A stretch of 64,000 bases of DNA from Bryobacterales bacterium (lineage in GTDB: Bacteria > Acidobacteriota > Terriglobia > Bryobacterales > Bryobacteraceae), in the NCBI GenBank assembly GCA_020851555.1, contig JADZCM010000017.1, positions 124,001-188,000 of the forward strand, written 5' to 3'. A program made the translations under genes and the position numbers. A model generated the notes under the pieces. That model ran no database searches and had not been told where the DNA came from. It worked only from the letters and a program-made list of their open reading frames with translations. This document shows, one piece after another, positions 2,348 through 61,623 of this stretch. How positions within the stretch are numbered: position 1 is the stretch's first letter; every line of letters begins with the position of its first letter.

Positions 2348-5300
2348 CTATTCCTCCCCGCTGTGCGCACCCAGGTAATAGCGGACGGCCGGCGTCACGA
2401 TGAGCGAGAGCACCATCGAGGCCAGGATCCCGCCGATCACCGCGATCGCCAGGGGCTGTAGCATCTGTGAGCCGGCGCCCCAGGCGAGCGCCAGCGGGAT
2501 CATGCCGGCTACGGTGGCCAGCGCGGTCATCATAATGGGTCTCAGCCGTCTCCGCCCGGCGCGCAACATGCTCTCTTCGGGGGGGATGCCGGCCGCCCGG
2601 TACTTCTGATCGGCATCGAGCAGCAGGATGCCATTCTTGGCAACGATGCCGATGACCATGATCAGGCCCATGAAGGACGAGAGATTGAAAGTGGCGCCGG
2701 TGACCAGCAGCGCGGCCAGAACTCCCGAAGTGGACAACAGCGCGGAGGCCAGCACGGCCACCGGGGCGCCGAAGTTCCTGAACTCGAACAGCAGCACGAT
2801 GAAGACCAACACAATGGCCAGCGCCAGCACGAAGAAGAGATCACGGAAGGAGCGCTGCTGCTCTTCATAGCCTCCGCCGTAGGTGACGCGGATGGCGGGC
2901 GGCAGGTTGAGCGCGGCGACGGCTTTCTGGACCTCGGCCATTCCAGCGCCCAGGCTAATGCCCTCCAGGCGGCCGGTGACATCGACCAGCGACAGCAGGT
3001 TCTCCCTGCGAATCTCCGTTTGACCGGGCAACTCGGTCAGCCGCGCCAGCGAGCCGAGCGTGGCGGTCCTGGCGCTGCGGCTGACGATCAGGGTGTTGCG
3101 GATCGCTTCCAGGGAGGAGCGCGTCTCCGGGCCAAACCGCACACGAATGGGATAGGCCCGGTCATTGAGAACCACGGGCACGGAGGCCGGCTGTCCTTGC
3201 AGCATGGCCGCGGCGGCCTGCTGGATCTCCTCCGGCGTGAAGCCGGCGCGCGCCGTGGCCGCGGGGTCTACCCGGAAGAGGACCGCCGGGCCGCTGATGG
3301 AGTTCTCGATCCCGTCCATCACGTCCACCACCCCCGGCAGCTTGCCGATGGCCTCCGCCACCCGCGGCGCCCATTCGCGGCGTAGCGCCGGGTCCTCCGA
3401 GAACAGCTTGATGATGATCGGCTCGGGCGCGTTGCTGAGGTCGCCGATCATGTCCTGAAGAAGTTGGACAAACTCCACGTTGAGCGTGGGCGCCTGCTCG
3501 CCGATCTTGCCCCGCACCTCGGACATTACTTCCTCGGAGCTTCGGCCGCGGGCCCGCTTCAGTTTGACGGCGATATCTCCCCGGTTGGCCTCCGTGACGG
3601 CGGCAAGGCCCAGCTCCATGCCGGTCCGGCGTGATGTGCTCTCCACCTCCGGCGTCTCCTTCAGGATGCGCTCCACCGTCAGCAGAGAACGGTTCGTATC
3701 TTCGAGCGAAGAGCCGGGAGGCGACCAGTAGTCGATGATGAAGCCGCCTTCGTCCATGCCGGGCAACAGGTCCGACCCGAGCGCCTGGTAGCACCACCAG
3801 CACCCGGCCACGAGCGCCACGCATGCAGCCCCCAGCCAGACCGGATGCCTCAGCACCACGGGCAGGACCCGCTCATAGAGCCGCATGACCAGCCGCCACA
3901 GGGGGCGCCGGCCGGTGTGGCCTTCCCCGCGCCGCCGGATGAAAATGTGACTCAGCGTGGGCGTCCAGGTGAGCGCCAGTGCCAGCGACGTCAGCAACGC
4001 CGCGGCCACGGTTACCGCCAATGCCCGGAAGAAGAGGCCGGTCACTCCGGTGATCGCGACCAGGGGGACGAAGACCACGATGGGCGTGATCGTGGAGCCC
4101 ACCAGCGGAGCGCGGATCTCGCGGATCGCGCTGCGGATCGCCTCCGCGCGCGTCTGCCCCAGGTCCCGGTGCATCACGATGTTCTCGACCACCACGATGG
4201 CGTCGTCTATCACCAGGCCCACGGCCGCGGCCAGACCGCCCAGCGTCATGAGGTTGAAGGTCTCCCCCATGAGGCGGAGAGCGATGAAGGTGATCGCGAT
4301 GGTGGCGGGAATCACCAGGCCCGCCACCAGCGAGGTCCCCCAGTCGCGCAGGAACAGCACCATGATGAGGGAGGCGAGAATCAGCCCCAGCAGAATGGCG
4401 TCGCGCACGCTGTAGATGGAACTGTTGACGATCTCCGACTGATCATAGAATGGACGCAACTGCACCCCCGGAGGCAGTGTCCCGCGGATCCTCTCCACCT
4501 CGCCGTGGACCGCGTCCGCCACGGTGACCGTATTGCCGTCCGGCTGCCGGTAGATGCTGAACAGCACCGCCGGCTTCTCGTTCGCGGTCACGATGGTGTA
4601 GACGGGCTTGACCGACGGAGACACCGTTGCCACGTCACCCACGCGGACAGGGTTTCCCGACGGCGAGGTCTTCACCGCAATGCCGGAGATCTCGGCGGGT
4701 GTGTGCACCTGGCCGCTCACCAGGCTGAGGACAAGCTGGTGGTTGTATTCCATCAGCCCTGGCGAGTCGATCAGGTTGGTGCGGCCGATGGCGTCCAGGA
4801 TGTCCGGAATCGTGGTGGTGGTCTGGATGAGCTTGCCCGGATCGGGCCGGACTTCGAATTCGGGCTCCTGCCCCCCCTGGATCACCACCATGGAAACCCC
4901 CGGCAGCCGGTTCAAACGCGGCTTGAGGTTATAGGTGGCCATTTCCCAGAGATCCGTCTGGGGCACCGTGTCCGACGTCAGGCTGTAGCCCATGATGGGG
5001 AAAGCCGCGAACGTCAGGCGGTTGGTGGTCAGCTTGGTCCCGGGCGGCAGGTTCGGCTGGATGCGCGCCAGCGCGGCGTTGACCATGTCCAGCGTCTGGT
5101 ACATGTCCGCTTTCCAGTTGAAAAACAGGTTGATCTCCGCCGTGCCGCGACTGGTGATAGACCATACCCTCTCCAGTCCCTGTACCGTGTTGACGCCGTC
5201 CTCGATGGGGCGCGTGACTGTGACCAGCATCTGGTCAATCGGGGCCACGCCGTTGTCCACGCCGATCACCACGCGGGGGAAATCCGTCTCCGGGAACACC

Positions 5301-5443
5301 GCCACGGGGATGGCGCGGGCCAGGTAGATCCCCACCGCCACGCACGCGAGGATCACGAAGATGATGGGCTTGGCGTAGAGGGCGCTCCAGTGCCGGTCCC
5401 CGGAGCCCTCCCGGCCCGGGACAACGCGATCGAGGCCGCTCAT
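2348..5443 (-). CDS. RND efflux transporter, inner-membrane pump subunit
   Basis: A 1031-residue AcrB-type pump that drives proton-coupled export through a tripartite complex. Two homologous halves are visible, each with a transmembrane helix followed by a large periplasmic loop. The proton-relay residues of the family are present: an Asp-Asp pair in the TM4 motif GLVIDDAIVVVE (residues 413-414) and Lys936 in the TM10 motif GIVAKNGILLL. Length is normal for the family. The 4-nt overlap with the adaptor gene (5440-5443) shows translational coupling, and the TolC partner and a two-component system lie just upstream. The motifs fit the hydrophobe/amphiphile (HAE) type better than the heavy-metal type, but the substrate cannot be read from sequence. 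Confidence 0.93.
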   Translation of the reverse strand: MSGLDRVVPGREGSGDRHWSALYAKPIIFVILACVAVGIYLARAIPVAVFPETDFPRVVIGVDNGVAPIDQMLVTVTRPIEDGVNTVQGLERVWSITSRGTAEINLFFNWKADMYQTLDMVNAALARIQPNLPPGTKLTTNRLTFAAFPIMGYSLTSDTVPQTDLWEMATYNLKPRLNRLPGVSMVVIQGGQEPEFEVRPDPGKLIQTTTTIPDILDAIGRTNLIDSPGLMEYNHQLVLSLVSGQVHTPAEISGIAVKTSPSGNPVRVGDVATVSPSVKPVYTIVTANEKPAVLFSIYRQPDGNTVTVADAVHGEVERIRGTLPPGVQLRPFYDQSEIVNSSIYSVRDAILLGLILASLIMVLFLRDWGTSLVAGLVIPATIAITFIALRLMGETFNLMTLGGLAAAVGLVIDDAIVVVENIVMHRDLGQTRAEAIRSAIREIRAPLVGSTITPIVVFVPLVAITGVTGLFFRALAVTVAAALLTSLALALTWTPTLSHIFIRRRGEGHTGRRPLWRLVMRLYERVLPVVLRHPVWLGAACVALVAGCWWCYQALGSDLLPGMDEGGFIIDYWSPPGSSLEDTNRSLLTVERILKETPEVESTSRRTGMELGLAAVTEANRGDIAVKLKRARGRSSEEVMSEVRGKIGEQAPTLNVEFVQLLQDMIGDLSNAPEPIIIKLFSEDPALRREWAPRVAEAIGKLPGVVDVMDGIENSISGPAVLFRVDPAATARAGFTPEEIQQAAAAMLQGQPASVPVVLNDRAYPIRVRFGPETRSSLEAIRNTLIVSRSARTATLGSLARLTELPGQTEIRRENLLSLVDVTGRLEGISLGAGMAEVQKAVAALNLPPAIRVTYGGGYEEQQRSFRDLFFVLALAIVLVFIVLLFEFRNFGAPVAVLASALLSTSGVLAALLVTGATFNLSSFMGLIMVIGIVAKNGILLLDADQKYRAAGIPPEESMLRAGRRRLRPIMMTALATVAGMIPLALAWGAGSQMLQPLAIAVIGGILASMVLSLIVTPAVRYYLGAHSGEE

Positions 5444-6690
5444 TTCTGTTCCGGCTTCCCTCCGGAATTCCGTATCTGCACCTTCGCGCCATCCTCCAGG
5501 CCCATTCCGCCTACGATGACCACCTGCTCGCCGGGTGACACACCCTTCAGAATCTGCACCCTGCCGGCGTTCCGGACGCCTGTCTCCACGTCCTTCCGGT
5601 GGACCACCGAATCACCATCAACGGACATCACCATCACGCCGCCCCCCGGGGATGGCAACAAAGCCGCGAGGGGAACCGTGACCGCGTCAGGCAGCGTGCC
5701 GGTGACAATCGCCACGCGCACCGCCGCGCCCGGCTTCAGGCGGTTGCCCGGATTGTCCGCCTGCACCCAAACCTGCAACGTGGTGCTTCCCGTGTCGGCG
5801 GCCGGACTGACGACGGTGACTTTGCCGTGGACCGGCGGCAAGTTGTCGGCGGGCGCGATGGACGCGGAGTCGCCGGGCTTCACATAGGCGGCCTGATCCA
5901 AAGGGACGTTCGCACGCGCCACAATCCGGGAGATGTCCACTACGGTGAGGAGCGGCGTACCGGCGCTCGCCATCTCGCCGGCGTACAGCGGCCGATCCGC
6001 CACAATGCCGGCGATGGGGCTGCGGATCTGGGAATAGCCGAGTTGCGCTTCCGCCGCCTGGTGGCGGCCTTTGGCGGCCTCCACCTGCGAAGCGGCTTGC
6101 TTGACTTGGTCTGCTCCGGCGACGGCATTCAGGGTTTTCAGGTGCTCCTGAGCGGTCTGAAGGTGCGCCTGCGCCTGGGCAAGGGCGACCTCCGCCTCGT
6201 CCACCAACCGGCGGGCGATGGCGCCTTCGTTGAGCAACTGGCGGCGGCTCCCGGCGAGCGCCCGGGCGGCCTCCACCGCCTGACGGGCGGCCTGCACTTC
6301 GCCCTGCGAGCGAACGATCTCCTCCGGGAGCGAAGCGCCCGTCGTAAGGCGGTAGCCGGCCTCCGCCTGATCGACCTGTGACTTGCTCTCGGCGGCCGCC
6401 CCCGCCAGGTCCTTGTTCTCCAGAACCGCCAGAAGCTGCCCTTGGCTCACGTGGTCGCCGCGGTTGACCAGGAACTTCTCCACCGGCGCGCCGATTTTGG
6501 GGGTCACGGCTGCCTGGTCGATGGGGTAAAGCACGCCGTCCGCGGCGACCACGCGTTGAATCGCCTCGCGGCTCACGGGCGCTACTTGCACTGGCGCCAC
6601 CGGCGCGGTCCCGGCCGCCTCCTCGCTCTTGGAACAGCCACAGGCGGCCAACAGTGAGCCGGCCAGGAGCAGTATGGGTATCTTCGGCAT
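5440..6690 (-). CDS. RND efflux periplasmic adaptor, lipoprotein
   Basis: A 416-residue membrane-fusion protein linking the RND pump to its outer-membrane channel. The N-terminus is a lipoprotein signal with a lipobox ending at Cys17 (LLAAC). Then come a barrel-sandwich (biotinyl-lipoyl-like) half, a long Ala/Glu/Gln-rich alpha-helical hairpin (about residues 95-215), the second half of the lipoyl domain (SPIAGIVADRPLYAGE) and beta-barrel domains. It sits between the TolC-like gene (3-nt gap) and the pump (4-nt overlap), the classic order of a tripartite efflux operon. It acts in the periplasm, anchored to the inner membrane by lipid. Confidence 0.92.
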   Translation of the reverse strand: MPKIPILLLAGSLLAACGCSKSEEAAGTAPVAPVQVAPVSREAIQRVVAADGVLYPIDQAAVTPKIGAPVEKFLVNRGDHVSQGQLLAVLENKDLAGAAAESKSQVDQAEAGYRLTTGASLPEEIVRSQGEVQAARQAVEAARALAGSRRQLLNEGAIARRLVDEAEVALAQAQAHLQTAQEHLKTLNAVAGADQVKQAASQVEAAKGRHQAAEAQLGYSQIRSPIAGIVADRPLYAGEMASAGTPLLTVVDISRIVARANVPLDQAAYVKPGDSASIAPADNLPPVHGKVTVVSPAADTGSTTLQVWVQADNPGNRLKPGAAVRVAIVTGTLPDAVTVPLAALLPSPGGGVMVMSVDGDSVVHRKDVETGVRNAGRVQILKGVSPGEQVVIVGGMGLEDGAKVQIRNSGGKPEQK

Positions 6691-6693
6691 GTC

Positions 6694-7995
6694 TTAGAAG
6701 GCCCCCGTAAGTGTCTGTAGGTTTACCAACGCCAGGCGGTAGCGCAGCAGGCCCTCGTCGGCGGCGTTGCGCGCCTGGATGAGCGCGGCTTGGGCATCGA
6801 CGACCTCCAACGCCGTGGCCTCGCCCGCCTGGTAGCCCAGCAGCGTGAGCCTGGCGCTCTCGGCCGCCAAATCGCTGGAATGGCGCAGAGAAGCCCTCTG
6901 CATGCCCGCCGCATCCGCCTCGAGGTAGAACGCGTTCAAGTTCGCCAGCAATCCCCGCTGCGCCAGACTCAGCTCCGCCTGGGCCTGTTGAAGCCGCAGT
7001 TCCGCCTGGCGCACCCTGCTGCCGGACGCACCCCAGTTGAAAACGGGGACCGCCAACTCGGCCATGACGGAGGAGCCGAGGTTCCTCAATTGCTCCGGAC
7101 CGCGGACTGCGTACTGGTTGGCGTTGATGCCGTAGACGTATTCGAAGGAGAGCGTGGGCAGCCTCTCACCGCGGGCGGCCCTGATTCCGAAGGTCTCCCG
7201 CCGGACCGTCTCCTGCGCCGCGCGGATATCCGGGTTGTTCCTGCCGGCCAGCGCCTGCAACTCTTCCTTGGGCGGCAGCGGGCGCGGTTCATCCAGATCG
7301 TCCACAACCGAGAAGTCCTGCCGGAAATCGCGGAAGAGGAGAACCGCAAGGCCGAGACGGGCCTTGGCCAGCGCCAGTTCGGCGTCCTGCGCCTCCCGCT
7401 GCCTCTGATCTCTCTGCATTTCGGCTTTGACCACGTCTGCGTGCGCCACCTCGCCGCCCGCTTCCTGCTTCTGAGTGATGGAGAGGAACAACCCGGCCTC
7501 CTCGAGGCTCCGGCGCGCGTGGGCGCCCCTCCGCCCCGCCAGGACCAGGCCGTAGTAGCGCTCCGTCACGGCGAGGGTCAGGCCCCGGGCTGCGACCTCC
7601 GCCCGGGCGAGAGCCGCGGCCTCGGCCGCCAGGGACATTCTGTACTGCGCCGCTTTGGGGGGCGAGTAGATCTCGCCGTGGAGGATCGCCTGGTTGTTGT
7701 AGACGTGCGGGCCGTCGTTGGAGACGAACACGCCGCTTCCGCTTCCGTTCGGCTGCGTGTAGATAAACTGGTTGAGCCAGTTGACGCTGGGCAGGAGCGC
7801 CGCCCTGGCTTGCAGGTGGTCTTCTCGCGCCAGTTTCGCCTCGATTTGCGCCGACAGAAACTGCGGGCTGTTGGCCCGTGCGCGTTCGAGCGCGTCCTCG
7901 AATGAAATGGCGGGAAGACCGGCCGGCACGGCCTGGGAAAACAAATGGGCAACCAGAGCCAGCCCGGCGCCCACCAGCAGGGGAAGTCGAGACAT
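6694..7995 (-). CDS. TolC-family outer-membrane efflux channel
   Basis: A 433-residue outer-membrane factor with a signal peptide (residues 1-25). Two OEP repeats are rich in long Ala/Gln/Arg coiled-coil helices, for example around RQAELRLQQAQAELSLAQR, typical of TolC channel tunnels. The start at 7995 has a GGGGTG ribosome-binding site. It is 44 nt downstream of the sensor kinase gene and 3 nt upstream of the adaptor, so regulator, channel, adaptor and pump appear to form one transcription unit. It supplies the outer-membrane exit for the RND pump at 2348-5443. Confidence 0.9.
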   Translation of the reverse strand: MSRLPLLVGAGLALVAHLFSQAVPAGLPAISFEDALERARANSPQFLSAQIEAKLAREDHLQARAALLPSVNWLNQFIYTQPNGSGSGVFVSNDGPHVYNNQAILHGEIYSPPKAAQYRMSLAAEAAALARAEVAARGLTLAVTERYYGLVLAGRRGAHARRSLEEAGLFLSITQKQEAGGEVAHADVVKAEMQRDQRQREAQDAELALAKARLGLAVLLFRDFRQDFSVVDDLDEPRPLPPKEELQALAGRNNPDIRAAQETVRRETFGIRAARGERLPTLSFEYVYGINANQYAVRGPEQLRNLGSSVMAELAVPVFNWGASGSRVRQAELRLQQAQAELSLAQRGLLANLNAFYLEADAAGMQRASLRHSSDLAAESARLTLLGYQAGEATALEVVDAQAALIQARNAADEGLLRYRLALVNLQTLTGAF

Positions 7996-53969: not shown

Positions 53970-55628
53970 TTAGTATTGTATCGCGATCCCCCGCTCATCC
54001 AGCAGTGTGCCGGTCACGCGCAGGAGGTTGAGCTGGTTGGTCCGGTAGTTGATGGACTCGGTCACCACGCGAGCCTCCGCCGTGGTGAGGCGGGTCTGCG
54101 AATCCAGCACGAAGTACATTTGGATGACGCCCAGATCATACCGCTGCCTGTCGGCGTCCAGTTGCTTCTGGGCGAGGTCCCGGGCGATGATGGCCAGCTT
54201 GACGGACTCGCGGCTGGACTCCAGGTTGGTGATGGCATTGAGGACTTCCAGCCGTACGCTCTGCTCGCGGCTGCGGAGACTGAGGGTGTCCTGCTTCTTA
54301 CTCAGCAGGCTGTTGGCCAATCTGGCCTGGCCGGCCCGGTCTCGCAACGGGAGGTTGAGCGTCAGCCCCAGACTGTAGGTGGTGTTGTTGAAGCCGAAGA
54401 CCTCGGAGAGCGCGTCGTATAGACCGCCGGGTATCATCGTGGTAATCTGGCCGCTGCCCAGCCCGGTCCTCACATACTGGTTGCCCCCACGGCCATTGGA
54501 CCGGTAGCTTCCGGTCAGATTCAACTGGGGCCGGAGTTGGTCGGCGGCGGACCGGATGTTCAGGTCGTCTATATCCAGACCGATCCGGGAGGACTGCATT
54601 TCGGGCCGGTTCGCGAGAGCTTTCTGCACGAGCGATTCCCGGTCGAGCGGCGTCGCCTCGCTAGGCGGCATGACCGTCTCGGTGAGCACGATCGGCAACT
54701 CCCGGTACTTCGGGTCCAAATCCGCGCCGATCTGACGCCGGAGGGCGTCCTCCAGTTGTGCCAGCCGGAACTTCGCCTGCGTGACCTGAATCACCGCGTT
54801 CTGATAGTCCGCCTCGGGCTGGTAGGTCTCCAGTTGGGGGATTGCGCCCAGTTCCAGCTCCCGCTGGCTTCTTTCCAGAGACTGCTTGCGCATGGCCAGG
54901 GATTCCTGCTGAACCCGGAGGCTCTCACGCGCGCCGATGACGGCCCAGTAGGCCGATTCGGCGTTCTGAACCGCGGTCATCACCTGGCTGCGGATATTCA
55001 ACTCCGTGGTGCGCAGGTTCGCGCGCGCAATCGTGATCGGCATCCGCACGATGGCGGGGCTGCGGCCGCGCAGGAGCGGCTGGGTGAAACCAGCCGAGAA
55101 GTTGGAAACGAACGCGGGGTTGTAGGTGGAGAAGGCGCTGTTGCTGGAGCTCTTGGAACCGTTGAAGCCCAGGTTGAAAGACGTCCCGTTCTCCAGCAAC
55201 TGGTTGTACGTGAAGTTAACAGGGCCAAACTGCGTTTGCTTATTCACGTTGGCGCCGTCGAGCTGCGTAGAAGCGGGAATCGCGGAGTGGTTGTAACCCG
55301 CCGTGACCGTAAGCCTCGGATCGTACTGCCCGAATGCGTTCGTGATGGCGTTTCGCGAGTTCTCCACCGAAAGCTTCGTGATGGAGATGTCCGTGTTGTT
55401 GGCCATCACCAGGTCCAGGTAGGCGCGCAAGGAAAGCTCCAGCTTGCCGTCCACCGCATAGTCCGCCAGCTTGGCCGGAGGCTCGAGCTGAACCTGGGTG
55501 CTGGGATTGGACCACATCTTGCGGAAATAAGACGCCTTGGGGAACAGGGGCGCCTCAACCTGGGCCAGGAGCCCGGAGGCGCAAATCAGTGCCAACGCTG
55601 CAAACCGAAGTCTCATGGGAATCCTCAC
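53970..55628 (-). CDS. TolC-family outer-membrane channel of the second export locus
   Basis: A 552-residue outer-membrane factor with a signal peptide (residues 7-22, LALICASGLLAQ). Two OEP halves with long coiled-coil helices are visible, for example MRKQSLERSQRELELGAIPQ and later RSREQSVRLEVLNAITNL. It is longer than the TolC of the RND locus. Its ATG shares one base with the upstream permease gene stop, so they are co-translated. It is the last gene of the minus-strand run of three HlyD adaptors and an FtsX-like permease and is likely their outer-membrane exit. Confidence 0.9.
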   Translation of the reverse strand: MRIPMRLRFAALALICASGLLAQVEAPLFPKASYFRKMWSNPSTQVQLEPPAKLADYAVDGKLELSLRAYLDLVMANNTDISITKLSVENSRNAITNAFGQYDPRLTVTAGYNHSAIPASTQLDGANVNKQTQFGPVNFTYNQLLENGTSFNLGFNGSKSSSNSAFSTYNPAFVSNFSAGFTQPLLRGRSPAIVRMPITIARANLRTTELNIRSQVMTAVQNAESAYWAVIGARESLRVQQESLAMRKQSLERSQRELELGAIPQLETYQPEADYQNAVIQVTQAKFRLAQLEDALRRQIGADLDPKYRELPIVLTETVMPPSEATPLDRESLVQKALANRPEMQSSRIGLDIDDLNIRSAADQLRPQLNLTGSYRSNGRGGNQYVRTGLGSGQITTMIPGGLYDALSEVFGFNNTTYSLGLTLNLPLRDRAGQARLANSLLSKKQDTLSLRSREQSVRLEVLNAITNLESSRESVKLAIIARDLAQKQLDADRQRYDLGVIQMYFVLDSQTRLTTAEARVVTESINYRTNQLNLLRVTGTLLDERGIAIQY

Positions 55629-56884
55629 TACTCGTACCGGATGGCCTCGATGGGATCGAGCTTCGCGGCCTGCACGGCCGGGTAGATTCCAAATAGTAGT
55701 CCGATGAATACCGATACACCGAAGGCGACCACAATGGAGGCTGTGGTAACCACTGTGGACCAGCCGGCGGCCAGGGCGATCACCTGGGAAAGCGTGAAAC
55801 CGAAGATGATCCCGATGACGCCGCCGACGATCGAGATCAACACGGCTTCCGTCAGAAACTGCCTCACGATGTCCGCCTGCCGGGCCCCGATGGCGCGGCG
55901 GATGCCGATTTCGCGCGTCCGCTCGAGCACGGTCGCCAGCATGATGTTCATGATGCCGATGCCGCCCACCAGCAGCGAGATCCCGGCGATGCAGATCATG
56001 ACGATCTCGAAGATCATCTGCGTCTGCCGCCGCTGCTCCAGAAGGTCGGCGGGCACGACCACGGTGTAGTCGCCCGCGTCCTTGTGGGTCGCGGCCAGAA
56101 TGGCGTTCACCACCCTGGAGGTCTCGATCGAATCGGTGCCGTCGGCCACCCGGAGATAGATCCCGTCAATCTCGTCCCTGAGGAAGCCCTGGTTGTCCTC
56201 GAACCGCCGCATCACGGTGTTGAGCGGCGCGATGATCAGGTTGTTCCGGTTGGTGACCTCCAGCCCCTCCACGTCGGTGTCGGCGCTCGCCTGGTGGGCC
56301 AGAACGCCGATCACCTGCAACCACTGGGTGTTCACCTTGACGTACTTCCCGACCGCGCGCTCGTACCCGAGCAGGTTCACCTTGGCGGCCTCGCCCAGCA
56401 CGCAGACCGGCGCCGAAGTCGTGTTGTCCTCGTCGTTGAACCAGCGCCCCTCGATGATCTTGAGGCTGTTGATCTCCAGGAAGCTGGGCAGCACGCCGAT
56501 CAACTGCGGCGGCTCCATGCTGCTCTTGGGAAGCAACTTGCTGGGCTTGAACCGTTTCCGCGGCGTGGACGCCTGTATGCCCTGCACGTTCGCGGCGATG
56601 TTGCGGTAGTCGCGGAACGTCAGGCCGGGGGAGATAGCGCGGCGCGCCTGTAAGGTGTCGCGGTCGGTGGCTTCCTTCGCTTCAACGATGATGTTGTTGA
56701 CTCCCAGCAGATCGATGAAGCTGATCATCTCCTTCTGGGCTCCGGCGGTGATGGACAACATGGCGACCACCGCGCCAACGCCGAAGATCATGCCCAACAT
56801 GGTGAGCAAGCTGCGCAGCTTGTGCACCATCAGGCTCGAAAGGCCCATGTACAGCTCGGGCAAGTAACCTGTTAGGCCGCTCAT
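55628..56884 (-). CDS. MacB/FtsX-type ABC transporter permease without an ATPase domain
   Basis: A 418-residue permease. The first transmembrane helix with the typical LRSLLTMLGMIFGVGAVV is at residues about 23-50. A MacB-like periplasmic domain follows (residues about 55-285). The last three helices (residues about 290-415) contain GGIGIMNIMLATVLERTREIGIRRAIGA and end DPIEAIRYE. MacB proteins normally have an N-terminal ATPase, and none is fused or encoded in the window. A separate ATPase must come from elsewhere, or the complex works otherwise. It lies between three adaptor genes and a TolC gene. Confidence 0.9.
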   Translation of the reverse strand: MSGLTGYLPELYMGLSSLMVHKLRSLLTMLGMIFGVGAVVAMLSITAGAQKEMISFIDLLGVNNIIVEAKEATDRDTLQARRAISPGLTFRDYRNIAANVQGIQASTPRKRFKPSKLLPKSSMEPPQLIGVLPSFLEINSLKIIEGRWFNDEDNTTSAPVCVLGEAAKVNLLGYERAVGKYVKVNTQWLQVIGVLAHQASADTDVEGLEVTNRNNLIIAPLNTVMRRFEDNQGFLRDEIDGIYLRVADGTDSIETSRVVNAILAATHKDAGDYTVVVPADLLEQRRQTQMIFEIVMICIAGISLLVGGIGIMNIMLATVLERTREIGIRRAIGARQADIVRQFLTEAVLISIVGGVIGIIFGFTLSQVIALAAGWSTVVTTASIVVAFGVSVFIGLLFGIYPAVQAAKLDPIEAIRYE

Positions 56885-56919
56885 TCGTTACCTCTGCCGT
56901 CCAGTGATCCTGACTGCAT

Positions 56920-58746
56920 CTACTTCGCCGATCCCCCCGCACCGCCCATCGGGCCAGCGCCACCGCCCTGCTTGGGCTCTTCCTTCTTCTTCGCGGGTTG
57001 CCGCGTGGGATTGACCAAAGCGATCTCTTCGCCCGGCTTCAGCCCCGAGGAGATCACCCAGGTGGCCTCGCTGCGTTTCAGCAGTTGCACGGGACGCTCG
57101 TCAAAGCCCTTCTCCGCTTTCACGTACGCCACCGGCTTGCCGTCCCGTTCGAACACCGCCTGCGCCGGAATGTAGATGGCGTTGGGGATCTTCTCGATCA
57201 CGACCTCGACGTCCGCCAGGAGTCCCGGCCGCAACAGCACTTGCAGGCCGCTGTCTTCCTCCGGCGGCGGCGGCAGCTTGGCCGCATCCAGGTCCTTCTG
57301 ATTGAACTGGGGTCCGCCCCTGCCTGGAAATCCCATTGCGCCGAAATCCGCGCCGCCGCGCTGTCCCCGCCCGGAGCGCTGTCCGCTTTCAGCGCCGCCG
57401 CGGGCCGCGTCCTGAGCGCCCTCGCCGGCTGTGCCGCGGCCGCTCCCGCGCGTCTGTCCGGCGGCGCCGGCGTCACGCTGCCGGCCGCCCTGTGCTTGGC
57501 CCTCACTGCCGGAGTTGCCCGCGCCGGGCTGCCGTCCGCCGGTCTGGCCCTGGCCCCGCCCGGCGAAGGCGGAAGGATCAAAATTGCCTCCCATTGCGCC
57601 GGGCATGCCGCGGGCGGAGCCTCCCTCCATGCCGCCCATCGCGGGGAAGCCGGAGAAGGCCGTCCGCGTCACCGGCCGGTTGCGATTCTTTTCAGCCGTA
57701 GCCAGGATCTCGCGGATCTGCTCCGGCGTGGCGCCGACCGTCGTCAGCAGTTCCTTCATGTCGACGGAGAACAGCACCTCGAACTTCTTGGAGGGGTCGC
57801 CCGAGAACACGTTGGCCGTGGCCGTGCCGCTCATGCTCTTGATCTTCCCGTGGATCTTCTTGCCGGCCAGCGCGTCGAGCTGAATCACGGCGTCCTGGCC
57901 CTCGACCAGGTTGGCGCGGTCCAGTTCGCCGATCTTGGCCACCAGTTCCACTTCCGAGAGGTCGAGGATGTCGGCGACCGGCATTCCCGGCTGTACCTGG
58001 TCTCCCTCGCGAATGTCCGGGATCTGCGAGCCGAATTGCCTCGCGCCGCCGAAAGTATTCTGCCGGATCGCGACGAGGCCGCTCATGGTGGCCAGCACCC
58101 TGGTCTGGCGCAGGCGGGCCTGTTCACGGGACATTTCCAGATTCGCGCGCTGCCGGTTCTGTCTCACAAGCGCCAGTTGAGCCTGCGCCTGCTCCTGGCG
58201 CGACTTGACATCGCTCTCGGTCTGGACGAGCGTCCGCTTGGCTTGCTCCAGGCTCAGGATGTTCTTGCGCTTGTCGATGTCTCCCAGCAGTTCGTTCTTC
58301 TGCACCTGGAGTTCGGCCCGGCGGACGGCGTACTTGGCCTGAAGCAGGTCCACCTGGTCCTGGTTGTTCCGGATGGCCAGCTCCGCCTCCTGGCGCTTGA
58401 TGCTCTCGTCGAGCGACTGGAGATTGAGCTGCTGTTCCTCCAGCCGTGAGAGCACCTCGGAATCGTCGAACTCCACGATGAGATCCTTCTCGCGAGCGAA
58501 GGAGCCCATCGCGGCCAGTTGCGTCACCTGCACCGTTCCCATCAGGTTCGGCGCCACGATCGCCTCCGACCGCAAGGCCCGAAGTTCCCCCCGGGAAAAG
58601 GCGCTGATCACGATCTCGCCCTGGCGCACCTTGGCCAGGGGAATCTCCTGCCTGCGCTGGGGCATCTGCCGGACGTAGCTGTATCCCCACCAGCCCGCGC
58701 CGGCCAGGATGCCCAGCATCACCACTCGCAAAATGAGTTTCTTCAT
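56920..58746 (-). CDS. HlyD-family periplasmic adaptor 3, with long Gly/Gln/Arg-rich insert
   Basis: A 608-residue membrane-fusion protein, much longer than usual. An N-terminal membrane anchor (residues 3-24) leads to the first lipoyl-like half (about residues 35-105). Long helical hairpins follow (about residues 100-215), then the second half and beta-barrel domain (about residues 215-365). Residues about 366-483 are a low-complexity insert very rich in Gly, Gln, Arg and Ala, for example QTGGRQPGAGNSGSEG. The C-terminal barrel-like domain ends in PTRQPAKKKEEPKQGGGAG. It is the third adaptor in the run, 35 nt upstream of the permease. Confidence 0.88.
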   Translation of the reverse strand: MKKLILRVVMLGILAGAGWWGYSYVRQMPQRRQEIPLAKVRQGEIVISAFSRGELRALRSEAIVAPNLMGTVQVTQLAAMGSFAREKDLIVEFDDSEVLSRLEEQQLNLQSLDESIKRQEAELAIRNNQDQVDLLQAKYAVRRAELQVQKNELLGDIDKRKNILSLEQAKRTLVQTESDVKSRQEQAQAQLALVRQNRQRANLEMSREQARLRQTRVLATMSGLVAIRQNTFGGARQFGSQIPDIREGDQVQPGMPVADILDLSEVELVAKIGELDRANLVEGQDAVIQLDALAGKKIHGKIKSMSGTATANVFSGDPSKKFEVLFSVDMKELLTTVGATPEQIREILATAEKNRNRPVTRTAFSGFPAMGGMEGGSARGMPGAMGGNFDPSAFAGRGQGQTGGRQPGAGNSGSEGQAQGGRQRDAGAAGQTRGSGRGTAGEGAQDAARGGAESGQRSGRGQRGGADFGAMGFPGRGGPQFNQKDLDAAKLPPPPEEDSGLQVLLRPGLLADVEVVIEKIPNAIYIPAQAVFERDGKPVAYVKAEKGFDERPVQLLKRSEATWVISSGLKPGEEIALVNPTRQPAKKKEEPKQGGGAGPMGGAGGSAK

Positions 58747-58782
58747 CGCACGCCCAATTGCGGGCCGGCCTCATGAGCCGCC

Positions 58783-60096
58783 CTAGAGTCTCTTCTTGGC
58801 CTTCACCGCCTCCGTCGGATCCACGAGCGCTACCATTTCACCCTCCCGGAGGCCGTTCGTGACCACGATTTCCGATTCGTTCCGGAGCCCGACCTCGATC
58901 GGCCGCGGCACGAAATGCTGGCCGGCCTGCACGAAAGCGCTCGGCTTGCCGTTCTGCGTGAAGCTGGCGCGAAGGTCGATCATCAGGACGTCGGGCTGGC
59001 TTTCAATAACAATGTCCACCGAGGCGCTCATCCCCGGACGCATCCGCGGATCGACGCTCTTCAGCAAAGCCCACGCGGGGAACTGCTTGTCGGAACTCGC
59101 TCCGCCCGGCCCTCCGCGGAACAGCAGGGCCGCGATGGGGCTGATCCAGGTGATCTCCGCGTCGAATTCCCTGTCGGGGATGGCGTCCACCCGGACCTTG
59201 ACGGGTTGCCCAAGCCGCACTTTGCCCCGGTCCACCTCATCCAGTTTCAGTTCCACCCGCATCGAACTGAGGTCGGGGATTTCGGCGATGGGGGCTCCCG
59301 TCCAGACGTTGTCTCCCTCGCGGAACGGTGGATCCGCCTGGCCGAAATTTCCTCCCGAGCGGAAGTTTGAGAGAATGTTCACCACTCCATCCACGGGAGC
59401 CCTGAGCGTCATCTGGTTCAGATAGCCCTGCGTCCTTTCCAGGTCCCTCTGCGCCTTCTCCTTCTGCGTCTTGAGCCGTTTGAGGTCGGCCTGCTGCGAC
59501 ACCTTGTGGGTGTTGACCCTGGCTTTTACCAGCCCCAGGCTACCTTCGGAGACGCTGACCGTGATGCGGTTCTTCTCGCCCTCGATCGCCGAAAGAATCT
59601 CGGCTTTGCTGGCCTCCAGCTTGGCGCGCTCCAGCGAGAACTCGGAGTTCATCAGCGTCAACTGGTCGCCCTCATCGGTCATCTTGTGCGAAGCCCTGGT
59701 CTGCACTTCCTGGCTCTGAACGGTCTGAACGGTGGTCTGGCGTTCCAGGAGGGCCTGGTCCTGGCTGGCGGAGTCGAACTCGACGATGACATCGCCTTTC
59801 CGGACTGCCTTGCCGGACGCAACCAGGGACTGTATGCGCAAATTCGGCACCTGGGGCGCTTGCAGGACGATGGACCGGGTGCTCCGAACCTCCCCCCGGG
59901 TCTTCACCGCGAGAACGAACGGACCGCGGCGGACTCTCTGCGTGGGCACTTCCACCACGGTCCGCACGCCGTAGTAGTAAGCCGCGTATCCCGCTCCGCC
60001 GAACAGCAGCAGGCCCACCAGCCAGAGCGCCGCTTTTTTCTTACCGGACAAACCGTGCTTGCCGATCCTGACCTTGGGCTTGACGTCTTTGGACAT
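58783..60096 (-). CDS. HlyD-family periplasmic adaptor 2
   Basis: A 437-residue membrane-fusion protein with a membrane anchor near the N-terminus (residues about 22-42, AALWLVGLLLFGGAGYAAYY). First lipoyl-like half with VKTRGEVRSTRSIVLQAPQV. Helical hairpin about residues 110-235 (QTTVQTVQSQEVQTRASHKM, later KRLKTQKEKAQRDLERT). The second half follows with LRAPVDGVVNIL and a beta-barrel end. It resembles the adaptors on both sides (VEFD phrases such as VIVEFDSASQ here and IVEFDDSEV in adaptor 3), so the three arose by duplication. It is co-transcribed with them. Confidence 0.88.
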   Translation of the reverse strand: MSKDVKPKVRIGKHGLSGKKKAALWLVGLLLFGGAGYAAYYYGVRTVVEVPTQRVRRGPFVLAVKTRGEVRSTRSIVLQAPQVPNLRIQSLVASGKAVRKGDVIVEFDSASQDQALLERQTTVQTVQSQEVQTRASHKMTDEGDQLTLMNSEFSLERAKLEASKAEILSAIEGEKNRITVSVSEGSLGLVKARVNTHKVSQQADLKRLKTQKEKAQRDLERTQGYLNQMTLRAPVDGVVNILSNFRSGGNFGQADPPFREGDNVWTGAPIAEIPDLSSMRVELKLDEVDRGKVRLGQPVKVRVDAIPDREFDAEITWISPIAALLFRGGPGGASSDKQFPAWALLKSVDPRMRPGMSASVDIVIESQPDVLMIDLRASFTQNGKPSAFVQAGQHFVPRPIEVGLRNESEIVVTNGLREGEMVALVDPTEAVKAKKRL

Positions 60097-60117
60097 ATGT
60101 TCCCCGACTCGCCTGAA

Positions 60118-61623
60118 TTACCGTTTCTTCTTGCCGGCCGCCTCCGCCGCGGCGCGATCCGTCGCAACCACGTCGCCCTTGCGCAGGCCGGACGCGACCG
60201 CCACCGACAGGAAATTCTTCTTTCCCAATTCCACCTCGCGCCTGGCCCAGCCCTCGGGCCCGCGCAGCATGACATAAGGGGTGCCCGCCGGCCCGTCCCG
60301 GAAGACCGACTCCAGGGGGGCGATGACCGCATCGGGCACGCTTTCCACGAGCAGGTCAGCGCTGACCGACAAGTCCGGGATCACCCGGGGGTCCAGTTTC
60401 AACAGACGCAGCGCCACCGGGACTTCGCTGACGTACTCGGCGCGGAAGGTGCTGGCCCGCGGCATCGCGCCGATGCCGTAGACTTCGGCCGGCAACACCA
60501 GGTCCGGGTAGGCGTCGAACCGCACGGTGGCTTTGGCGCCGACACGGACTTGCTCCGCGTCGGCCTGATTGACCGTGGCATTGACGATCATCGAGGAAAG
60601 GTCCACGATCTGCATGATCGACTGTCCCGCGCCGACCTGATCGCCGGCCTTGATCTGGGCCTGGTCGGCGCTGCCGCGCCGCTGCGTTGTCATGATCACG
60701 ACCAGTCCGTCCAACGGAGCCCTGAGAATCATCCGGTCCACGTTGGCCTCGATACGTTTCAGTTCGGCGTAACCCTCGTCCCGCGACAGTTCCGCCACCT
60801 TCCACTGCGACTGGAGCGAAACCTCATTCAGCGGCACCTCCGTCTGCACCAGGTTGTAGACGGCTTCCGCCTCTTCCAGGGCCAGGCGAAACCGCTCCGT
60901 GTCGATGGCCGACCGGACGGGCGACGTCTTCAGATCCAGGCGGGCGCGGTCCACGTCCGCCACCGCTTCCTTGATCGAAAGCGCGTGGTCCTTCTCCGCC
61001 ACCTCGAGTTGCGCCCGTACACTGGCCAGGTTCGCCTCGTTCTGTTCTATGCGGGTCTTGAAGTCATCCAGACGGAGCAGCATGTCCTCGCGGTCGAACT
61101 CGGCGACGATGTCCCCCTTCTTCACCATCACGCCGGGCGCGATCAAGCGGACCAGGGTCATCTGCGGGCCCTGCATCCCGCCCCGCGCCCCGGACATCAT
61201 CTGCACCCCGCCTCCCCCGCCGCCACCCCCGCCGCCACCCCCGCCGCCACGAGAGCCCCGGGCGACCGTGCTGATCTCCCGGACTTCAGTCATGGAGCTG
61301 CCACGGCCGCCGCGCATCTGGGGAGCCTTGAGAATCACGTAGTTCCGCGCGGCGGTGGATCCGGTCAGGCGCAGGGTCCGGTCGAGCGGCCCGGTGGTGA
61401 TCGTGGCCGCGGGCACGGTCAAAACCGGCGGTCCTCCGCCCGTGATGGGCTGCACCCGCGAGTTGACGAGGTAAGCAACCCCTGCCGCGCCGGCCGCCAA
61501 CAGCACAGCCGCTACCCACCACCCCCACCTCCGCCTCTTCGGCGGCGGTGCGACCGGAAACGGCTTGGGGCGGGAAGGCGCCGGCTGCGGAAACGGTGCA
61601 GGGGAAGGCAGTCCGCTGGTCAT
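60118..61623 (-). CDS. HlyD-family periplasmic adaptor 1, with polyglycine loop
   Basis: A 501-residue membrane-fusion protein. A cytoplasmic Pro-rich N-terminus (residues about 5-28) precedes a membrane anchor (about residues 35-52). The lipoyl-like half has STAARNYVILKAPQMRGG. It continues into a loop with 14 consecutive Gly (about residues 125-138) coded by three perfect 12-bp repeats (61214-61249). Helical hairpin about residues 180-300, then a second half with LRAPLDGLVVIMT. The beta-barrel tail ends in AAAEAAGKKKR. It is the first gene of the five-gene export run. Confidence 0.87.
   Translation of the reverse strand: MTSGLPSPAPFPQPAPSRPKPFPVAPPPKRRRWGWWVAAVLLAAGAAGVAYLVNSRVQPITGGGPPVLTVPAATITTGPLDRTLRLTGSTAARNYVILKAPQMRGGRGSSMTEVREISTVARGSRGGGGGGGGGGGGGGVQMMSGARGGMQGPQMTLVRLIAPGVMVKKGDIVAEFDREDMLLRLDDFKTRIEQNEANLASVRAQLEVAEKDHALSIKEAVADVDRARLDLKTSPVRSAIDTERFRLALEEAEAVYNLVQTEVPLNEVSLQSQWKVAELSRDEGYAELKRIEANVDRMILRAPLDGLVVIMTTQRRGSADQAQIKAGDQVGAGQSIMQIVDLSSMIVNATVNQADAEQVRVGAKATVRFDAYPDLVLPAEVYGIGAMPRASTFRAEYVSEVPVALRLLKLDPRVIPDLSVSADLLVESVPDAVIAPLESVFRDGPAGTPYVMLRGPEGWARREVELGKKNFLSVAVASGLRKGDVVATDRAAAEAAGKKKR
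61214..61249. repeat. Three perfect 12-bp tandem repeats coding for polyglycine
   Basis: The unit CCCCCGCCGCCA on the plus strand occurs three times in a row, at 61214-61225, 61226-61237 and 61238-61249. It lies inside adaptor 1 and encodes four Gly per unit on the minus strand. Such a tract can change length by slippage without breaking the frame. Confidence 0.9.

Follow-up and report, generated by a model that had tools for sequence, protein, structure and literature searches.

A conserved MacAB-TolC-like export cassette of Acidobacteriota with three position-specific adaptors and, in most lineages, no ATPase gene of its own

Our analysis of a 64,000-nucleotide stretch of DNA from a Bryobacterales bacterium (referred to here as the window) points to a MacAB-TolC-like pump in which three different adaptors would share one ring and ATP would be supplied in trans. 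The proposed machine would be an ABC pump of type VII that exports across the envelope. Its permease would be a homodimer carrying a ring of six adaptors, to which H1, H2, and H3, all three obligate, would presumably contribute two copies apiece (2+2+2), and this ring would dock onto TolC. In the lineage of the window, a MacB-type ATPase would energize the permease from outside the operon, with ABC2 as the best candidate, a detached protein that is probably shared with other ATPase-less permeases such as the tandem pair on contig C52. We give this reading as a whole a probability of about 0.6. Its support is sequence based and consists of domain content, 1:1:1 co-inheritance of the adaptors, H1-H2 fusions, a conserved coupling helix, and operons of distant relatives that include an ATPase gene.

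RESULTS

The genes of the locus are encoded on the minus strand in the order (5' to 3') rho, H1, H2, H3, permease, TolC, and mutL, with rho (63319-61772) as the upstream and mutL (53884-51923) as the downstream neighbor of the cassette. Open reading frames and Pfam matches confirmed the initial annotation of this region, which had described three diverged HlyD adaptors in front of one MacB-type permease without a nucleotide-binding domain (NBD). H1 (501 amino acids; 60118..61623, minus) is a HlyD/MacA-type periplasmic adaptor (HlyD_3, 1.8e-13; HlyD_D23, 5.9e-11) with a hydrophobic stretch at the N terminus and a poly-Gly insert in the lipoyl-domain region; it carries a run of ~14 glycines. H2 (437 amino acids; 58783..60096, minus) matches HlyD_D23 (1.5e-11), and H3 (608 amino acids; 56920..58746, minus), which contains a long Gly-rich insert, matches HlyD_3 (6.6e-09). 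The gaps between aligned pieces in relatives suggest that the lengths of the inserts in H1 and H3 are variable. The permease (418 amino acids; 55628..56884, minus; MacB_PCD, 3.2e-35; FtsX, 4.8e-22) is followed by a TolC-family outer-membrane channel (552 amino acids; 53970..55628, minus; OEP, 6.1e-43), a gene that lies within the span of the initial annotation but was missing from its title. The gaps H1/H2, H2/H3, and H3/permease are 21, 36, and 35 bp, respectively, and the permease and TolC genes overlap by 1 bp. A separate RND efflux operon, encoding an RND permease, an adaptor, and a TolC protein, is found at the opposite end of the window (2348-7995).

A Pfam search detected no ABC_tran domain in the permease, and when ABC_tran matches were collected over the whole genome, none fell within the operon or the 20 kb around it. 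The nearest ATPases on the same contig (C17:203907 and C17:118133) are both more than 20 kb away and, by similarity (31 to 36%), are not of the MacB type. The earlier statement that no ATPase gene is nearby is therefore correct.

Of 61 related genomes, 55 encode a permease relative at a threshold of E <= 1e-80, most of these relatives being 67 to 83% identical within the same order. Among 80 loci kept from a species-level genome collection, nearly all displayed the arrangement H1-H2-H3-permease-TolC with no ATPase inside the cassette, often between rho and mutL, and TolC kept its place next to the permease in almost every Bryobacteraceae locus. Many of these genomes also harbor a paralogous cassette, identical in layout and likewise without an ATPase, whose permease is 52 to 57% identical. 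At the rho-mutL locus of one genome (G018; L171:7354-12235), the cassette is strongly diverged, with a permease of 40% identity, and no TolC was detected.

Across the phylum, permeases of the tri-adaptor kind were present in 71 of the 297 Acidobacteriota genomes sampled. The three-adaptor layout was seen in the examples fetched from distant families, in an inspection that left out some lower-scoring cassettes. Where 5.5 kb or more of sequence was available upstream of the permease, exactly three adaptor open reading frames precede it in 94 of 105 cases; the arrangement thus recurs in Acidobacteriota, a point that the initial annotation had proposed to check. The module is deeply conserved across the phylum, far beyond chance.

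All tri-adaptor permeases form a single clade (100/100) against the one-adaptor MacBs. Among 71 tri-adaptor permeases placed in a tree, an ATPase gene is absent from the operon for 64 and present for 7, which are distributed over three nested lineages. In Acidobacteriota, the linked ABC gene is located either upstream of H1 (L277, L292, L293, L294, and L298) or downstream of the permease (L285 and L270). Our survey beyond Acidobacteriota, which covered plasmids only, identified a compact operon on a Pseudoalteromonas megaplasmid (L310; the same in L311) with the order ABC-position 1-position 2-position 3-permease. Its adaptors each match their own positional profile best, in order, and its permease clusters with those of the Acidobacteriota cassettes that have a linked ATPase (100/99). 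By eye, SPFH/stomatin-like and NfeD-like proteins are encoded just upstream of this operon (L310:2377-3815).

As MacB-type ATPases are operon linked both in Acidobacteriota cassettes and in Pseudoalteromonas, this type of machine apparently uses a MacB-type ATPase. The initial annotation had named an ATPase gene next to the permease in related genomes as an observation that would contradict it. Such genes occur in distant relatives and in none of the close ones, so the lack of an ATPase is a feature of the lineage and not of the pump as such. The ATPase may have been lost from most cassettes or gained by the linked ones, and the trees fit either history.

A search of the window's genome for an orphan MacB-type ATPase, also proposed at the outset, led to ABC2 (C2:53287-54021). 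It is among the four MacB/LolD-type ATPases that score above the rest in this genome. The MacB-type ATPase on C30 has its own permease next door, the ATPase on C35 adjoins a LolC-like permease, and the one on C21 is LolD-like. ABC2 is of the MacB type, with Walker A, signature, and Walker B motifs present, and has an adaptor (H4) and accA upstream, with no permease in its context. This ATPase, which occurs throughout the phylum, and its adaptor lie together at C2:53287-56445 (L189:8287-11445), downstream of accA and with no permease of their own. ABC2 orthologs are 70 to 85% identical in most relatives, and 236 of the 297 sampled genomes contain a match at E <= 1e-85. No FtsX-type permease was found beside ABC2 in the Bryobacteraceae loci fetched or in 7 of 9 distant loci. 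In two outgroup families, represented by L208 and L210, two permeases follow H4-ABC2; the window's genome has their orthologs as the detached tandem pair on C52. ABC2 cannot, therefore, be described fully as a free orphan without partners, an interpretation that we rejected; with its ancestral permeases detached, it already appears to act in trans. At least seven other FtsX-type permeases in the genome have no ATPase gene next to them (two on C52, four on C57, and one on C38). On C57 (L174; C57:98001-118000), an HlyD gene precedes two FtsX-type permeases, and there is also a second tandem permease pair, in both cases with no ATPase nearby.

The operon-linked ATPases bear on the choice among these candidates. 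The ABC2 clade includes the linked ATPase of L270 (100/98). Placing all linked ATPases in one clade with ABC2 is not rejected (p-AU 0.31), and the tree leaves the placement of the others loose. Grouping the first three linked ATPases found with the ATPases of one-adaptor MacBs is marginally rejected (p-AU 0.045). In three genomes with a linked ATPase (G106, G110, and G212), the linked gene is the closest ABC2 relative of the genome and there is no separate close ABC2. It is an unlikely, if serious, alternative that the trans motor is another ATPase, whether the MacB-type protein on C30, a LolD-type protein (C35 or C21), or several interchangeable ones. Four ATPases of the appropriate types are at hand, several linked ATPases (those of L277 and L285 among them) have no firm place in the ABC2 clade, and some complete cassette genomes, such as G065 (best match, 54%), have no close ABC2; against this alternative stand the adjacent permeases of the C30 and C35 proteins, the marginally rejected grouping, and the position of the L270 ATPase. 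Nearly the whole phylum has ABC2 (60 of 71 cassette genomes versus 176 of 226 other genomes at one and the same cut-off), so co-occurrence cannot single it out as the motor, and we dropped a strict association of ABC2 with the cassette as uninformative.

We also considered the ATPase encoded 3' of TolC in Solibacter loci (L099, L101, L108, L117, L141, L144, and L145) as the missing motor. This candidate was rejected: it is part of an HlyD-ABC-FtsX operon of its own, shares only ~50% identity with ABC2, and takes a different branch in the tree. In Solibacter-like loci (L117:12841-19091, L101, L108, and L145), a second operon of the form HlyD-ABC-FtsX(double)-ABC directly follows the TolC gene of the cassette. 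For the pump in the window, ABC2 would be the best, though not the sole, candidate motor.

In a tree of 97 adaptors, each of the three positions has a clade of its own in both major cassette groups, and H1, H2, and H3 of the window fall into the clades of positions 1, 2, and 3, respectively. Each position label requires 3 changes on this tree versus ~26 when labels are shuffled. In one locus (L180), the position 1 ortholog is detached by ~6.6 kb and still groups with position 1. Cassettes that show two adaptors were at first taken as candidates for true exceptions, an interpretation that we rejected: either adaptors 1 and 2 are fused, or, in 7 of 7 genomes checked, an H1-like protein is encoded elsewhere. 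The best-match identity of these detached H1-like proteins is 35 to 40%, versus 23 to 29% for the H2 and H3 of the cassette itself. In the loci fetched, neither an ABC protein nor a permease is encoded beside them.

Position 1 and position 2 adaptors are fused in one continuous open frame in nine loci, with lengths of 783 to 861 amino acids where complete; one of the nine frames ends at a contig end. The first half of each fusion matches the position 1 profile best and the second half the position 2 profile, and position 3 is always separate. The fused cassettes occupy two places in the permease tree, and so the fusion arose at least twice. In four of the fusions (L249:5060-7498, L272:5128-7518, L282:5267-7615, and L270:13744-16269), an N-terminal anchor is apparently present on the first module only. 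In the ATPase-linked cassette of L270, a long open reading frame (L270:11394-13781) separates the adaptor fusion from the third adaptor.

The AF2 model of H2 (pLDDT 86) is that of a complete adaptor and displays an N-terminal helix (residues 18 to 42), two hairpin helices (110 to 168 and 170 to 227), and then beta domains, and its best PDB matches are MacA in the MacAB-TolC complexes 9qgy and 5nik. MacA is a homohexamer whose ring sits on dimeric MacB (PMC5985334); by that model, a ring with two copies of each of three subunits would suit a permease of 2-fold symmetry. Both the use of several adaptors and adaptor fusion have precedents, in TriABC and in dimeric adaptors (PMC8277102, PMC4446572). 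The homohexameric state of MacA can also be read differently. The adaptors of the cassette might not mix; each would then form a homohexamer of its own and connect this permease, or other pumps, with a different partner in the outer membrane, and the many other orphan permeases of the genome could borrow them. We regard this as rather improbable in view of the strict 1:1:1 positional co-inheritance and the repeated origin of fusions, in which H1 and H2 are joined as a single polypeptide. As judged from their genes, the three adaptors are distinct, ancient, and co-inherited 1:1:1, and the predicted three-subunit ring is well supported by evolution.

The permease gives a full-length profile match to the solved MacB structure 5lil (6.2e-72). 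In NCBIfam, it is closest to the C-terminal part of MacB (residues 257 to 646 of 648), at a score far below the MacB cut-off. Both the major and the minor coupling helices for an NBD are present. The major coupling helix (residues 321 to 335, ERTREIGIRRAIGAR; 55880..55924, minus) aligns with the same motif in solved MacB proteins and is the expected site of contact with the ATPase, the role described for this helix (PMC5985334). Among 62 ATPase-less tri-adaptor permeases, its mean identity is 89%, versus 51% for the periplasmic domain, which places it among the best-conserved parts of the protein. The AF2 model of the permease is poor (pLDDT 54 overall), with transmembrane and coupling helices that are usable (~75 to 84).

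The predominance of permeases without an operon ATPase, together with the abundance of ATPase-less permeases in the phylum (102 orphan permeases in one genome; PMC10564751), raises the possibility that the permease is ATP-free, either serving the adaptors as a structural or mechanosensory platform or depending on another driving force. This is difficult to reconcile with a coupling helix so well kept in the very permeases that lack an ATPase gene, or with the three nested lineages of the clade whose operons include a MacB-type ATPase, and we consider it distinctly improbable. The preserved helix and the relatives with an operon ATPase suggest instead that the motor in the window's lineage should act in trans, and a supply of ATP in trans is likely. 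That the locus is an assembly artefact or a decaying operon that has lost its ATPase, a view with nothing in its favor besides the missing gene, is scarcely credible given open frames and permease identities of ~75 to 83% across many independent assemblies, including the single-contig genomes G040 and G185.

DISCUSSION

The initial annotation offered a distant ATPase and a mixed adaptor channel as alternatives. Our results favor both at once, and the either/or does not stand. The distant ATPase is favored by the conserved coupling helix and by a MacB-type ATPase that occurs without a permease throughout the phylum; the putative mixed ring is favored by positional orthology, the retention of detached adaptor 1, and natural fusions of adaptor 1 with adaptor 2. 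There are counterpoints, in that ABC2 has ancestral partners of its own and MacA can form homohexamers.

The cassette shares with MacAB-TolC (PMC5985334) the permease fold (MacB periplasmic domain and FtsX four-transmembrane-helix unit), the coupling helices, MacA-like adaptors, and a TolC partner. MacAB-TolC has one adaptor, whereas three position-specific adaptors are present here, and the NBD that is fused or adjacent in MacAB-TolC is neither in this system, except in distant relatives. As the single adaptor and the adjacent ATPase are both lacking, the system is MacAB-TolC-like by mechanism and not a standard member of the family. It is not a LolCDE system by profile score either (LolC/E equivalog, 45.8 bits versus a cut-off of 362). 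In YknXYZ and Spr0693-0695 (5xu1), the MacB-type permease and the ATPase are likewise separate polypeptides; their ATPase is encoded together with the permease, and they have one adaptor of the MacA kind, in contrast to three here. The acidobacterial duplicated orphan permeases (ADOP; TIGR03434) are also ATPase-less FtsX/MacB-type permeases of Acidobacteriota. They are duplicated (an 803-position model), whereas the permease of the cassette is a single 418-amino-acid unit with adaptors and TolC and scores 126 bits against the TIGR03434 cut-off of 622.

TriABC-OpmH is similar in that more than one adaptor per pump is required; according to Mima et al. (2007), as cited in PMC4446572, two adaptors are needed. 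It differs in combining an RND transporter with two adaptors instead of a MacB-type transporter with three. In work cited in PMC4446572, fused dimeric adaptors are taken as support for adaptor dimers. MsmX-type multitask ATPases (PMC7658222) serve several ABC systems in trans, as we propose for ABC2 from its genomic contexts; MsmX acts on type I sugar importers. Among the open-access papers searched, we found no description of a three-adaptor MacB system.

The near-universal presence of the cassette in close relatives and its location between rho and mutL suggest a housekeeping function in the envelope more than one in drug resistance. More tentatively, and at somewhat less than even odds, the cassettes may represent a pump class of the whole phylum, with an obligate 2+2+2 hetero-hexameric ring that matches the 2-fold permease, mostly no private ATPase, and one freestanding MacB-type ATPase that also serves several other orphan permeases.

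MacB-family pumps have been described as one-adaptor systems with a motor of their own, and the present module departs from this description on both counts. Three obligate adaptors, if this is true, would explain how a six-membered ring fits both a 2-fold permease and a 3-fold TolC, and the cassettes would then represent a natural system in which fusion can fix the order of the ring. A motor shared among orphan permeases, if true, would bear on the many ATPase-less permeases of Acidobacteriota, which are abundant in soil and can have 102 such permeases in one genome (PMC10564751). Both the assembly of mixed rings and the sharing of a motor are directly testable in the tri-adaptor pump.
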